Shown one piece after another: positions 19,344 through 29,157 of a DNA stretch of 64,000 nt. The first letter of the stretch is position 1. Each line of letters opens with the position of its first letter. Position numbers and translations under genes: made by a program. Source of the DNA: Deltaproteobacteria bacterium (GTDB taxonomy: Bacteria > Desulfobacterota > DSM-4660 > Desulfatiglandales > Desulfatiglandaceae). The stretch lies in the NCBI GenBank assembly GCA_021737785.1, contig JAIPDI010000021.1, forward strand, positions 1-64,000, in the 5' to 3' direction. The notes under the pieces were generated by a model that saw only the letters and a list, made by a program, of their open reading frames with translations, ran no database searches and was not told the DNA's origin.

Positions 19344-19430
19344 GCCGAAGTGGCGGAACTGGTAGACGCGCTAGGTTCAGGGTCTAGTGGGCGAATGCCT
19401 GTGCGAGTTCGAGTCTCGCCTTCGGCACCA
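19344..19430 (+). tRNA. tRNA-Leu (anticodon CAG)
   Basis: An 87-base tRNA with acceptor arms GCCGAAG and CTTCGGC, a genomically encoded ACCA end, and an anticodon arm CTAGG-TTCAGGG-TCTAG that places CAG at 34-36. The long variable arm and the GGTAGACGCG D-loop are typical of class II tRNA-Leu. Confidence 0.97.
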
Positions 19431-24041: not shown

Positions 24042-24638
24042 TCAGAAAAGCCCCAGTTCCGTGGCGCGCGATACGGCAGCCGGGAACTTGTTTCTCAGGG
24101 TCTCCAATTCCTGGGCGTCCCGAACCATGCGGATGTCGTCGATGTGCCAGCCCGGCACGACCATAACCCCGTAAAGCCCCCAGTCATATTCTGGGACCTC
24201 CTTTTTGACAAAGCCCATCCATGTGCCTGCGGGAATCACCTTCTGCGGGACCTGGCCCTTGTCCACCTCCGGACCGAGGGCAATTTCCTCCCAGGTCCCG
24301 TCCGGATACAAGAGCATCTGGATCATGGGCGCTCCGGCATGATAAAGGAGGATCTCGTCGGATGTGAGGATATGCCAGGGGTCGATAGTGACCTCCCGGG
24401 TCATGAGATAATAGATGAGGGAGGCGCTGGACCGGTCCGTTTCCATATCGGCCTTGAGGGCCGATTGATAGGTGGGTTTGTAAAACCCCGGACAGGCGTC
24501 GTCAGACATGGGTTCAAGGGCCAGGCCCTGAATGACCTGATGTGCGGACAGGCGTTGTTTCTGTCCCACGGTGGCGCATCCACCGATGGTCATGGCCGTT
24601 ACCCCCGCGACAATTAACCAGGGAATCGATTTTATCAT
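24042..24638 (-). CDS. DUF985 (cupin_5) lipoprotein
   Basis: A 198-residue lipoprotein: signal MIKSIPWLIVAGVTAMTIGGC with a clear lipobox, then a cupin fold of the DUF985 family (SLIYYLMTREVT, LTSDEILLYHAGAPMIQMLLYPDGTWEEIALG, QKVIPAGTWMGFV, VMVVPGWHIDDIRM). DUF985 proteins are usually cytoplasmic, so an exported, lipid-anchored form is uncommon. Ligand and activity are unknown. The start at 24638 is chosen for its GGAGAG 7 bases upstream and for the signal peptide. It follows the SAHH-like gene by 118 bases. Confidence 0.8.
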   Translation of the reverse strand: MIKSIPWLIVAGVTAMTIGGCATVGQKQRLSAHQVIQGLALEPMSDDACPGFYKPTYQSALKADMETDRSSASLIYYLMTREVTIDPWHILTSDEILLYHAGAPMIQMLLYPDGTWEEIALGPEVDKGQVPQKVIPAGTWMGFVKKEVPEYDWGLYGVMVVPGWHIDDIRMVRDAQELETLRNKFPAAVSRATELGLF

Positions 24639-24756: not shown

Positions 24757-27342
24757 CTAGGAAAGCGCCCCATGTTTGTCCGTGTTGACATCCACGGCAT
24801 AGATACCCGGGCTGTAAGTCTCTCCCTTTTCATGCCGGGAGACGAAGCCGCACAACAGGCTGTACAGCTCTTCAAAGACGCCGTCGATCACCTCGCCGGG
24901 CACCCCGTAATAGAGAAAATTAATGGGCATGGCATCGCCCAATAGATACAGATCCTTGCGCCAACCCCCGAAGCCGGGAGGGGAACCGGATGCCCCTTCA
25001 AAAACGATCCGTACGTGATGGCCTTGCAATACCTGGTTTTGGGGGTCCTTGATGGGCCGTTTCTCCAGGCGCACCGGATACCCGCCGATGGCAGGGTCGG
25101 GGGCATTGGAAAGGGTCTCGATCCAGGCAGTGAGGTCTGCGAATTCAATGGTTTTGGTCGACCCGCTGGCAAAAAACAGGTCTCGCGCCGATCCTTCTAA
25201 CAGGAGCTTCTCAAAGAAATCCCTCTGGAGCACCGACACCCCGGTAACGCCCACAAAGAGATCCAGAGGCTTCCAGACCTCTTCCGGGAGTTGATCGATG
25301 TGGGAGAAGTCCCGGGACCCATTGTTGCCGTCGCTCTTTGCCTTGATGTCCAGACCAAAGGCGGTTCCATAGGACCCCCGGTCAATCATGGCCTTCAGCA
25401 CGAAACGGCCGATGTTGCCGCAGGACCCCAGGATAAGGGCATGACGGTGGAGCATGCTCTTCCCGAGACCGTTGAAGATGGATTCCACTGCGCTGAGGAT
25501 GGAATAGGCGCATGCCTCCGCTTCCACGACGTTCTTATACCGCGATGTGGCAATGGTCAAAACGGGAAACGTGAGCCCGTTGCAATCCTTTTCCACGGCC
25601 TGCAACTGATAATAGCCGTTGGTCGTGTGTTCAAATGTGGCGGGAAGCAGCCCTCGAAGCCATTCTTTGAGAGGGATATTCACATCAAGGTCCGAAGGGG
25701 GCAAAACAGCGAAGAAGTCCAGGGTATGGGCCAGGGACCTGGCGTCATGGCAGAGGCGGTTCAGGACCGGGGCCAGATACCCGCCGTCTTCAATGAGCAA
25801 TAACTTGCGGCCTTCCTCCACTGCCGCAAGGGCTTCCCTGAAAAAGAGGTGCCCGGCCGCGAGGCGCATGGCCTCTATGTAGTTGCCCCGCAGGACCCGC
25901 AGGGCCTTATCCAGATCCTTCAGTCCTTCCAGGGAAGAATACTGGCGGGAAAGGATATAGGCGCCGTCTACAGAATCCCGCAGCTCGATTCGCTGGAGCG
26001 CGTAGAAGAGGAACCGATGCTCAGGCATGCTCAGCATGTCTTCCAAATGAGCGTCCGGCACAATGCCCTGGTAGCGGATGAAGAGGGTTGTCAGGAATCC
26101 ACACCCGGAGGCTTCCAGGGCCTTGACAAAGCCCAGCACTTCCGATGTGGCATGGTGAACCAGAAATATCCGGTAATTTTGGAGAATCCCGGAAGGCGCG
26201 GCAGACTGGGTCTCCAAAAGAGAGGGCATCCGCCTCAGGTGGGCCCCCATATCCGGAGGCTGGCGAGGTTCGCCGATACTGATATTGAGCATGGCCCCTT
26301 TTCGAGACAGGTCCATATAGATGCGGGTCTCGGCGTCCATCATCTCCAGGATGTTGCCCGAGGCCAGTATCCGGATCAGATTATCATCTTCCAGCAAGAG
26401 GAGGATTTTCGACAAGAGAAAGGAAAACTCAGGATCCTGACTTAGAAGCAATCCTTCCGACGTTTCCTGAGTCCACCTGAAGAAGGCCCCGGTCACGTTC
26501 TCAAGTCCTGAGGCCACCAGCAGCTCAAAAAGCGCCGCCTGACGCCCCGGAATTTCAATATATTCATTATGCTGGTTCTGGCATTCCCTGTGAATGCCGG
26601 TAAAAATCTGTTCCGCCATGATGGCGATGTCCTGGCGGTAGTGGCGACGGCCCACCTCATTGACCACCCGGTGGGGGATCCGTTTCAAGAACAGCCGGGA
26701 CTGGACCCCGTCCTCTATGGTGAGGCGGAGGAACCGGCCGTGTCGATCGTATTCGAGCAAAACAAAATAGCTGAATGCCCCTTCGCAGGTGGTGTGAAAG
26801 GGAAAGAGCATGGCCAGGCCTTGGTCTTCGGACGGCCCGCAGGACGCCTTATCTTTCATTTCAAAGGCCGTGGGAAAAAGAAGACCTCCCCATCGGGGCG
26901 TCTGAATCGCGTCAAATACGAGGCGGAGATGACGGCTGAATCCTTCCTGGTCGTCAAGGAGATGGCGGGCCACAGGGCCCCGGGCGTAGACCACCACATG
27001 GGTGACGCCGAGGGCCGCCAGCTCCGGCGTATTTTCGGGGTCCACCATGGTGCGGGTGAGAACATCCACCGGCGAATGACGGCATTGCTCCAGCACCTGC
27101 CTGGCCAATGAACTGACAAAACCGGGGATCCCCGAGAAGACCCGCATGGCCGTCATGTCTATAAGATAGCTGCCGTCGTCTTGTTCCATCAGGGGGATGC
27201 CGAAGGAGGTCAGTTGCGGCCCATGGGGGACCTCCCGGTCCTTTGCGTCCTTTTTGAATCGCGACGAGCGCATGAGGTTGTCCAGGATGGAACCGATCTG
27301 TTTTTTCTTTCCGCTCTCTTCCAATGGCGTTTTTCTCCTCAT
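24757..27342 (-). CDS. Large uncharacterised protein with an SAH-hydrolase-like NAD domain
   Basis: An 861-residue cytoplasmic protein. The N-terminal 480 residues match nothing I recognise. The C-terminal part resembles adenosylhomocysteinase: an S-R-Y-K-N entry (IATSRYKNVVEAEACAYSILSAVESI), a Rossmann GSCGNIG near residue 635, and VGVTGVSVLQRDFFEKLL...DLFFASGSTKTIEFADL, which parallels the TTTG...GHFD region. Some SAHH catalytic residues seem to be missing, so it is probably an NAD-dependent relative rather than a true SAH hydrolase. Its ATG overlaps the stop of the ECF-S/HAMP gene by four bases, and the MinD-like gene comes before that. Confidence 0.75.
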   Translation of the reverse strand: MRRKTPLEESGKKKQIGSILDNLMRSSRFKKDAKDREVPHGPQLTSFGIPLMEQDDGSYLIDMTAMRVFSGIPGFVSSLARQVLEQCRHSPVDVLTRTMVDPENTPELAALGVTHVVVYARGPVARHLLDDQEGFSRHLRLVFDAIQTPRWGGLLFPTAFEMKDKASCGPSEDQGLAMLFPFHTTCEGAFSYFVLLEYDRHGRFLRLTIEDGVQSRLFLKRIPHRVVNEVGRRHYRQDIAIMAEQIFTGIHRECQNQHNEYIEIPGRQAALFELLVASGLENVTGAFFRWTQETSEGLLLSQDPEFSFLLSKILLLLEDDNLIRILASGNILEMMDAETRIYMDLSRKGAMLNISIGEPRQPPDMGAHLRRMPSLLETQSAAPSGILQNYRIFLVHHATSEVLGFVKALEASGCGFLTTLFIRYQGIVPDAHLEDMLSMPEHRFLFYALQRIELRDSVDGAYILSRQYSSLEGLKDLDKALRVLRGNYIEAMRLAAGHLFFREALAAVEEGRKLLLIEDGGYLAPVLNRLCHDARSLAHTLDFFAVLPPSDLDVNIPLKEWLRGLLPATFEHTTNGYYQLQAVEKDCNGLTFPVLTIATSRYKNVVEAEACAYSILSAVESIFNGLGKSMLHRHALILGSCGNIGRFVLKAMIDRGSYGTAFGLDIKAKSDGNNGSRDFSHIDQLPEEVWKPLDLFVGVTGVSVLQRDFFEKLLLEGSARDLFFASGSTKTIEFADLTAWIETLSNAPDPAIGGYPVRLEKRPIKDPQNQVLQGHHVRIVFEGASGSPPGFGGWRKDLYLLGDAMPINFLYYGVPGEVIDGVFEELYSLLCGFVSRHEKGETYSPGIYAVDVNTDKHGALS

Positions 27343-28397
27343 GAATCATCCGCACCGGCCCTGCGGCGCAGGTTCCCGGCCTTCTGCTTCAGGGTTTTGA
27401 AATAGTCTGATTCGGTAATTTTTTCAAGGTCTGCGGTCTGCTTGTCCCGGTCGATTCGGACCCTCAGTATTTTCACTTCCCGCTTGAGTTCCTCCTCGCG
27501 CTTTTCCACGGACTGGACCATGTCCGAGAACACGGCAGCCATGGTTCCCAATTCATCCGGTCGGCTCCGGATGGCCGCCAGATCGCCCACATGGGAATAA
27601 TCGCCGTCAGCCACCTGGCGCGCCACGGTGGTAAGGCTCACCACAGGCGCCGTGATCTTCTTGGCGCTGACCGCGCTAACGGCCAGGCCGATGATCAGGA
27701 CGATCAGCGTCACAACCCCTAATGTGTAAAGCTCCTCCACGTGAAGCTGCTCCCCCATGGTGATCAGGATGCTGCTCAGCCAGGTGGCCATGACCGTGAT
27801 GATGAGGAGGTAGTAGACCGCCTGAATGGTGCGCATCTCGATGCGGGCGATGAGGAGTCCGGCCGCCCGCATCATGGGGGGAATCAGCATAAAGGCCCAC
27901 AGGGTGTCGGTGATGAAGATGGGGAGAAAGAGCCCGAACAGGGCCTGATGAAACGGGATCCGGCCAAGGCCGTACTCCACGGCCGTGGAAAAGGCGAACG
28001 GGACGCTGGATGCCAGAAGGAGGAGGATCAGGAGTTTTACAAAGGACGCAATGGCATCCACGGGCCTTGCGCCCAGATATCGGGCCAGTCCCGGTATGAA
28101 ACCCATGAGTCCGTTGGCGAGGCTCCAGTGAACGGCAAAAAAAGGACCCTTGCCCCCGATGGCGTAGCCCAGCATATCCCCCAGTGCCCCCGATACAAAA
28201 CCGCCCGCAGGACCGTACAGGATCCCCATGAACATGGGGAGGACCACCTGGGGCCGCAGTTCGGCAAAGTTGCATCCGGGGAGATAATATTTGCCCGACA
28301 GAAAATTGGCAAATCCGTAAAAGCACCCCACGGCAATGCAGACCAAGACTGTTATGACGGGTCTTTCTGACCCGATCTGTGGTGGGGGATGTGTCAT
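27339..28397 (-). CDS. ECF-S-like membrane domain with HAMP and coiled coil
   Basis: About 352 residues. The N-terminal half has six or so membrane helices with AELRPQVVLPMFMGILYGPAGGFVSGALGDMLG, a layout like the substrate-binding S subunits of ECF transporters. A further membrane segment leads to a HAMP-like linker (SAKKITAPVVSLTTVARQVADGDY) and a charged coiled coil (VEKREEELKREVKILRVRIDRDKQ). No kinase domain follows, so output must pass to a partner, perhaps the neighbouring MinD-like ATPase or SAHH-like protein. ATG 28397 is 4 bases after the ATPase stop; ATG 28427 is an alternative. Confidence 0.75.
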   Translation of the reverse strand: MTHPPPQIGSERPVITVLVCIAVGCFYGFANFLSGKYYLPGCNFAELRPQVVLPMFMGILYGPAGGFVSGALGDMLGYAIGGKGPFFAVHWSLANGLMGFIPGLARYLGARPVDAIASFVKLLILLLLASSVPFAFSTAVEYGLGRIPFHQALFGLFLPIFITDTLWAFMLIPPMMRAAGLLIARIEMRTIQAVYYLLIITVMATWLSSILITMGEQLHVEELYTLGVVTLIVLIIGLAVSAVSAKKITAPVVSLTTVARQVADGDYSHVGDLAAIRSRPDELGTMAAVFSDMVQSVEKREEELKREVKILRVRIDRDKQTADLEKITESDYFKTLKQKAGNLRRRAGADDS

Positions 28398-28401
28398 GCC
28401 C

Positions 28402-29157
28402 TCAGGAACGTAAGGCCCTTGCCACATGCTTCAGTTCCGATACAATGGGATGATCCGCGTATCGAACCGCGAAGATACCGTGGCTGGCCAGGCCCATCAT
28501 CTCTTCGGAATGGGGGATGACCCCGGCCACGGGGCAGTTGTAGGTGTCTGAGACCGTCCGGCGGATCTGTTCCAGGTCAAAGGTTGACGGGGCCTTGTTG
28601 ATGAGGATCATCATGCAGGGGACGTCCAGTTCCCGGGCCACCTCCACGGTCAGCCCGGTCCCCTGGTAATCCTGGAAATCGGGACGCATCACCACCAGAA
28701 GGGCGTTTGAAATGGCGATGGAGAGGAGGGTCTCCTCATTCAACCCTGGATGGGTGTCGATCACCAGGATATCCAGTTTCAACGCCCGGATCAGGTCGCG
28801 AAAGCCGTCGCTTAAGAGATCGATGTCGTACCCGTCGTGGAGGACCCGGGCGATGTCCGCCGCATTGACGCTGGAGGGGATGAGGTAGATGGCCCCGGTG
28901 CAGGCCCCCCCGAGGGCGCTGCTCACGTCGCAGGCGGTCTGTTCAATGGCACATCGGCCCCAGAGGTAGTCGTTGAGGGAATAGGGCGCTTCATCCTCGT
29001 CCAGACCAAAGATCACGTGGATCCCCGGCGACTGGATGTCCGTGTCGATCACCCCCACCCGGAGTCCGTCCATGGCATACAGCGCCGCCAGGTTGGCCGA
29101 CGTATTGGACTTGCCGGTCCCCCCTCGGAATGAATGAACAGATATGATGTCGGCCAT
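28402..29157 (-). CDS. MinD/ParA-type ATPase
   Basis: A 251-residue deviant Walker ATPase: SFRGGTGKSNTSANLAALYAMDGLRVGVIDTDIQSPG at the start, LVIDTHPGLNEETL for Walker B, and VVMRPDFQDYQGTG. Family members position or load cargo on membranes or nucleoid. A MinD-type membrane-targeting helix is not obvious at the C-terminus. It is the first gene of the operon with the ECF-S/HAMP and SAHH-like genes. Start ATG 29157 is preferred over the TTG at 29172. Confidence 0.85.
   Translation of the reverse strand: MADIISVHSFRGGTGKSNTSANLAALYAMDGLRVGVIDTDIQSPGIHVIFGLDEDEAPYSLNDYLWGRCAIEQTACDVSSALGGACTGAIYLIPSSVNAADIARVLHDGYDIDLLSDGFRDLIRALKLDILVIDTHPGLNEETLLSIAISNALLVVMRPDFQDYQGTGLTVEVARELDVPCMMILINKAPSTFDLEQIRRTVSDTYNCPVAGVIPHSEEMMGLASHGIFAVRYADHPIVSELKHVARALRS

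Follow-up and report, generated by a model that had tools for sequence, protein, structure and literature searches.

Why would a MinD-type ATPase, a membrane protein resembling the S component of an energy-coupling factor (ECF) vitamin transporter and a large relative of S-adenosylhomocysteine (SAH) hydrolase (SAHH) be encoded side by side? This question is raised by an operon on contig JAIPDI010000021.1 of a deltaproteobacterium, within the 64-kb stretch of DNA that was analyzed as a whole and is called the window here. As an answer we propose, with a confidence that falls a little short of even, that the operon is a membrane-coupled metabolic module in which a nucleoside enzyme of SAHH type, dependent on nicotinamide adenine dinucleotide (NAD), is tethered or gated by the ATPase and the ECF-S/HAMP membrane protein. 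We computed gene linkage, fold, invariant active-site residues and co-occurrence, and infer catalysis, substrate class, docking and the direction of control.

The three genes were confirmed on the minus strand of the window with a span of 24757-29157. They are transcribed in the order ATPase, membrane protein and 861-aa protein (hereafter the large protein), followed by a DUF985 lipoprotein; the first two genes are separated by a 4-base gap, the second and third overlap by ATGA, and 118 bases lie before the lipoprotein gene. The features are as follows:

28402..29157, minus strand: MinD/ParA-type (SIMIBI) ATPase, 251 aa (Pfam and MinD profile match)
29107..29133, minus strand: variant P-loop SFRGGTGKS of the ATPase, residues 9-17 (alignment of relatives)
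27339..28397, minus strand: membrane protein, 352 aa (Pfam ECF-S and HAMP, hydropathy)
27828..28397, minus strand: bundle like an ECF-S of the riboflavin type, residues ~1-190 (PF07155 E 4e-8, residues 46-126)
27504..27665, minus strand: HAMP domain, residues 245-298 (PF00672 E 3.1e-8)
27342..27440, minus strand: conserved C-terminal tail of the membrane protein, proposed docking segment (alignment of 24 members)
24757..27342, minus strand: large protein, 861 aa, with an N-terminal domain and a complete SAHH-like fold
26263..27219, minus strand: N-terminal domain of the large protein, residues 42-360 (confident structure prediction)
24760..26262, minus strand: SAHH-like substrate- and NAD-binding domains, residues 361-861
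24042..24638, minus strand: DUF985/Cupin_5 lipoprotein, 198 aa (PF06172 E 1.5e-27)

Linkage of the three genes across phyla

Across about nine phyla, 24 non-redundant loci carry the three genes side by side. A first-pass annotation, made from the sequence of the window, had already read the three genes as one operon joined by the gap and the overlap, and both the coordinates and this recurrence bear it out. Across the 24 loci, 4-base overlaps or tiny gaps between the genes are frequent. In the locus L050 (Cloacimonadota) the gene order is rearranged and the membrane gene lies on the opposite strand, with the same genes still together.

Among 395 genomes of the phylum, a profile search found the large protein in 11, while the membrane protein and the ATPase subfamily (threshold E 1e-40) are each present in 7. 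The latter are the same seven genomes, all of them within the 11 that carry the large protein, and the genes are adjacent in them; G290 has its ATPase gene divided between two contig ends. The naive probability of such co-occurrence by chance is about 1e-12, or 3e-9 when counted by genus, both values ignoring shared ancestry. The collection of named genomes yielded 57 large-protein loci, belonging to Desulfobacterota, Spirochaetota, Planctomycetota, Lentisphaerota, Kiritimatiellota, Acidobacteriota, Elusimicrobiota, Bipolaricaulota, Cloacimonadota and others. Since the large protein is missing from two further genomes of the window's genus that were searched (one of them just 89% complete), the gene set is accessory and was probably transferred between lineages.

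In a maximum-likelihood tree of 49 large proteins, all 24 loci with both the ATPase and the membrane protein fall into one supported group of 26, the remaining two members being L045, where the contig is cut off inside the gene, and the acidobacterial locus L047. In other lineages the large protein stands without both partners, often by a zinc alcohol dehydrogenase. The enzyme is thus the core of the set, and the membrane protein and ATPase are an addition in one clade. The first-pass annotation would have given up the grouping if each gene had turned up scattered independently in other genomes; the ATPase and the membrane protein do not, but the large protein does occur elsewhere without them. 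In two genomes (G342 and G017), fragments of the membrane and large genes lie elsewhere (L018:14875-15207, L017, L016 and L093) and are apparently decayed extra copies.

The large protein as a branch of the SAHH superfamily

No Pfam or NCBIfam model matched the large protein up to E 1, and a sequence search of the PDB gave nothing usable. The AlphaFold model, based on 49 sequences, was predicted with a local confidence (pLDDT) of 87.4 and a template modelling score (pTM) of 0.84. Its residues 347/361-857 match SAHH structures (VIA Z up to 29.5, with a root mean square deviation of 3.2 over 363 residues for 3x2f; Foldseek E ~1e-13 for the SAHH-like part), and a profile-profile alignment by hhalign to 20 SAHHs of the order reached E 2.5e-8 over residues 364-861. 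The large protein hence has the two-domain fold of SAHH, in a kinship that is visible by profile-profile comparison and not by curated family models. The likeness of the C-terminus to adenosylhomocysteinase noticed in the first-pass annotation is thereby upheld by structure prediction, although the N-terminal 480 residues that had been left without a match shrink to about 1-360, with SAHH homology covering 361-861.

The roles of the individual positions are known from mouse SAHH, where Thr157 and Lys186 bind the 3'-OH, Lys186 being the acid in the 3' redox step, and Glu156 and Asp190 are placed at the 2'-OH (PMC4647836). His55, Asp131 and His301 line the 5' side, with His55/Asp131 acting at 5'/C4', while adenine is contacted by Thr57, Glu59 and the main chain of His353; the NAD site is closed off by the C-terminal domain of the neighbouring subunit, which contributes Lys426 and Tyr430 (PMC4647836). 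In the 49 large-protein sequences, with SAHH numbering assigned by alignment, H397 (His55), T399 (Thr57), E401 (Glu59), D519 (Asp131), T573 (Thr157), K603 (Lys186) and N808 (Asn346) are all kept in 49/49. Two substitutions are just as invariant, namely H572 at the position of Glu156 and E607 at that of Asp190. In the NAD loop, glycines 639 and 642 and D665 occur in every sequence and G645 in 48 of the 49. Read against the published mouse roles, the alignment suggests that the large protein retains both the redox pair at the 3' position and the pair for proton transfer, together with the residues that contact adenine, and that the 2' contacts have changed.

An ordinary SAHH is encoded separately in the window genome and in nearly all sampled genomes of its order. 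Therefore, the large protein has a different function and is not the SAHH of the genome. It is a distinct, deep branch of the SAHH superfamily. With SAHH proper (AdoHcyase, PF05221/PF00670) it shares the fold of both domains over ~500 residues, the aligned active-site residues and the NAD loop, but it differs by the lack of a Pfam match, by the changes Glu156 to His, Asp190 to Glu and GHF to SGSTKT, by the absence of the Lys426/Tyr430 tail and by its extra N-terminal domain. Shorter homologues in Firmicutes and Bacteroidota share the motifs EDGGY, SGSTKT-EF and MPxNF and bridge this branch to SAHH; one of them, in L078, matches an SAHH model at E 8e-4. A second SAHH-like branch of ~680 aa was observed in L078:7608-9677, L079, L081:4696-6753, L071:5133-7160 and L077. 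Its hosts are Firmicutes, Bacteroidota and a deltaproteobacterial metagenome-assembled genome, and Pfam matched none of the members scanned. In L078, L081 and L071 the gene is followed by one of ~165-185 aa with a similar sequence start, which suggests that this branch has its own conserved partner.

The N-terminal domain is also predicted confidently when residues 42-366 are modelled alone (pLDDT 89.8, pTM 0.85). For this modelled domain, comparison with the PDB yielded a best Foldseek match of E 0.01 with a probability of 0.09 and a best VIA Z of 3.5, so that the PDB gave no fold match, a result that does not by itself establish a new fold. Apparent N-terminal extensions of about 360-450 residues in GC-rich relatives were dismissed, as they seem to result from reading in the wrong frame; what truly lies upstream in most of these relatives is the dehydrogenase gene.

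The membrane protein and the ATPase

The membrane protein consists of the ECF-S-like bundle, two transmembrane helices joined by an outer loop of ~10 residues, HAMP, a coiled coil and the tail. Its Pfam matches are ECF-ribofla_trS, above the PF07155 cut-off in the window protein (33.9 bits against 26.7), and HAMP; both models are matched by 24/24 members at E 1e-3 or better. The same Pfam matches include no DHp or kinase domain after HAMP, just as the first-pass annotation had noted. As the outer domain is almost absent, any sensing must be confined to the membrane bundle. The tail follows a consensus around I-[TV]-x-[ST]-DYF-xx-LK-x-KA-xx-LR, in which I327, F333, L336 and R344 are invariant in the 24 members from many phyla. 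Because it is conserved over phyla and is attached to no enzyme domain, this tail would most simply be a docking site. Compared with riboflavin-type S components, which share the PF07155 domain, the operon protein is fused to HAMP, a coiled coil and the conserved tail, and no genes for an ECF T or A component were seen in the operon or the adjoining genes. With HAMP receptors such as histidine kinases and SiaA-type phosphatases it shares the transmembrane-HAMP arrangement, matching that of NarQ, but it has no kinase, cyclase or phosphatase domain, ends in a coiled coil and a short tail, and has almost no outer loop.

The ATPase matches AAA_31, CbiA and ParA in Pfam, and its closest solved relative by profile is the archaeal MinD 1hyq. 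Its assignment as a positioning-type ATPase in the first-pass annotation is supported in that it is of MinD type. The SIMIBI fold recovered by profile is common to MinD, FlhG and ParA, from which the operon protein differs by scores under the MinD cut-offs (TIGR01968, 45.6 bits against 212.9; TIGR01969, 82.4 against 201.75), by other operon partners and by its Walker A motif. The latter reads FRGGTGKSN, with an arginine (R11) replacing the signature lysine in 22/22 relatives; the canonical deviant Walker A with the signature lysine (KGGxGK) is not present. In a PADLOC search for anti-phage defence, the only result was that the P-loop part of the ATPase weakly matched two candidate-defence models, and a defence assignment was rejected.

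Genomic surroundings and competing explanations

A zinc-dependent medium-chain dehydrogenase/reductase (MDR) is inserted between the membrane protein and the large protein in 11 loci, mainly of the Syntrophales kind, and takes another position in the cluster in L053, L051 and L050. In the sister clades (Planctomycetota, Leptospiraceae), where the ATPase and the membrane protein are absent, it mostly lies directly upstream of the large gene. This partner carries ADH_N and zinc-binding domains like the zinc MDR alcohol dehydrogenases that resemble L-threonine 3-dehydrogenase, from which it is set apart as a distinct subfamily, far under the curated NCBIfam cut-offs. The window's own subclade has the operon without dehydrogenase. 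The window genome contains one zinc dehydrogenase away from the operon, with 57% identity to the operon type (L117:9027-10085, G000:C18), between a response regulator-GGDEF gene and apparent riboflavin genes ribE-ribBA-ribH. The vicinity of riboflavin genes and the riboflavin type of the ECF-S domain may be a coincidence. As several genomes of the window's clade have no copy at ortholog level, a role of the dehydrogenase as universal partner was rejected.

The DUF985 lipoprotein, assigned to Cupin_5 (96.7 bits against a PF06172 cut-off of 25), was suspected from the start to belong to the operon, and an exported DUF985 protein is indeed encoded after the large gene in five additional loci belonging to the window's clade (L027, L028, L049, L030 and L083). 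These include Elusimicrobiota and Kiritimatiellota, and the gap in L028 is 2 bases. Directly after the DUF985 gene of L028, the stretch L028:4628-4969 resembles by eye the start of a nicotinate phosphoribosyltransferase (candidate). Three Syntrophales-type loci (L039, L042 and L073) have the operon flanked on both sides by two paralogous amidohydrolases of the 5'-methylthioadenosine/SAH/5'-deoxyadenosine deaminase kind, which is in keeping with a 5'-modified adenosine as substrate but is not proof.

Other neighbours are restricted to parts of the family. In L067, another amidohydrolase-like gene overlaps the start of the large gene. Leptospiraceae-type members have a STAS-domain gene directly before the large gene (L035:1098-1430; L048:1267-1596, the latter by eye), and L047 has a STAS-like gene close by, together with genes for a SpoIIE phosphatase and an anti-sigma-type ATPase. 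A conserved protein of ~1000 aa is encoded downstream of the large gene in L037, L043 and L076 (DUF2339 and a 4-base overlap in L037). No gene of a mobile element was seen next to the operon in the window, and a scan for promoters and terminators revealed nothing prominent. The sole tRNA of the window is a tRNA-Leu (CAG) at 19344-19430.

In the mechanism we propose, the large protein would oxidise the 3'-OH of an adenosine-type nucleoside using tightly bound NAD, and this oxidation would let it remove, exchange or alter the 5' substituent. Because the 2'-OH and 5' contacts have changed and an N-terminal domain has been added, the substrate would be other than SAH. The ATPase and the ECF-S/HAMP protein would most likely tether the large protein to the membrane or act as its switch. 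In this scheme, the ECF-S-like bundle might respond to a small molecule in the membrane, with HAMP and the coiled coil as relay and the conserved tail docking either the ATPase or the large protein, while the exported DUF985 cupin may serve the outside face in the window's clade. The set would accordingly sense or localise. That a kinase-less HAMP receptor with a converted vitamin-transporter subunit as its sensor controls, via the MinD-type ATPase, an SAHH-type enzyme that has a new fold attached and makes or destroys an adenosine-derived metabolite or signal is a possibility to which we give clearly less weight; it would amount to a type of system without earlier description.

Several observations weigh against the metabolic module. 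About half of the large-protein family has no membrane/ATPase pair, so the pair is dispensable for the enzyme in general. The region of SAHH His301 (Gly-His-Phe) reads SGSTKT-x-EF in nearly all 49 sequences (S726, S728, T729 and K730 in 49/49, the matching to the His301 position being made by eye), Glu156 is replaced by His, and the NAD-clasping tail (Lys426/Tyr430) is gone, the chain ending before it in the relatives looked at; this tail varies also in the order's own SAHHs, among which L084 has a different one. With His301 and Glu156 replaced and the tail lost, it is not certain that the protein retains NAD or carries out the complete SAHH reaction. In addition, most genomes in the window's clade yielded no orthologous dehydrogenase, and the deaminase-type neighbours stem from three related genomes.

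The same replacements and loss would suit a large protein that acts as an NAD/adenosine-binding regulator and informs the membrane protein of metabolite levels. SAHH-like proteins of animals serve in signalling instead of catalysis, and the link to a signalling-type membrane protein also fits. We nevertheless consider this improbable, since the redox and proton-transfer positions are invariant across many phyla and stand-alone members adjoin a dehydrogenase or an amidohydrolase-like gene. Somewhat less unlikely is that the ATPase and the membrane protein place the enzyme (and the dehydrogenase) at a pole or cluster it, with no ligand sensed. ParA/MinD-type ATPases position other cargo, and here an ATPase of this type strictly co-occurs with a membrane protein carrying a coiled coil and a conserved tail. 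However, the arginine found for the signature lysine may change the usual dimer-driven cycle, and an ECF-S-like bundle conserved in 24/24 members would be superfluous for a plain anchor. The PF07155 match, the exported cupin in the window's clade and the metabolic enzyme in the same operon could instead point to uptake, the ECF-S-like part importing a vitamin- or nucleoside-like compound for the enzyme and the MinD-type ATPase replacing the usual ECF energy module. Yet HAMP and the coiled coil are signalling elements, EcfT and an ABC ATPase are not in the operon, and we know of no precedent for a MinD-type ATPase driving an S component, which makes uptake quite improbable. A chance neighbourhood of unrelated genes is already refuted by the distribution, given the 24 loci in about nine phyla, the identical genome sets and the rearranged locus in Cloacimonadota, and deserves practically no credence.

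In summary, the component superfamilies are known, the large protein adds a new branch to one of them, and a description of the operon or of this combination was not found in the open-licence PubMed Central literature. SAHH is among the most conserved enzymes known, and here a deep, strictly conserved side branch is present in many phyla, with a changed active site and an additional domain that gave no fold match. As judged from its sequence, this branch implies that an NAD-dependent nucleoside reaction has gone unrecognised. Within one large clade, the enzyme is accompanied by a membrane protein and an ATPase, neither of which occurs without the large protein in the sample of 395 genomes. Both points can be put to direct test, given the invariant residues and the gene set, and identifying the substrate of the large protein would reveal what the gene set does. 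The tie to the membrane protein and the ATPase would represent a new way to link a membrane signal and metabolism.

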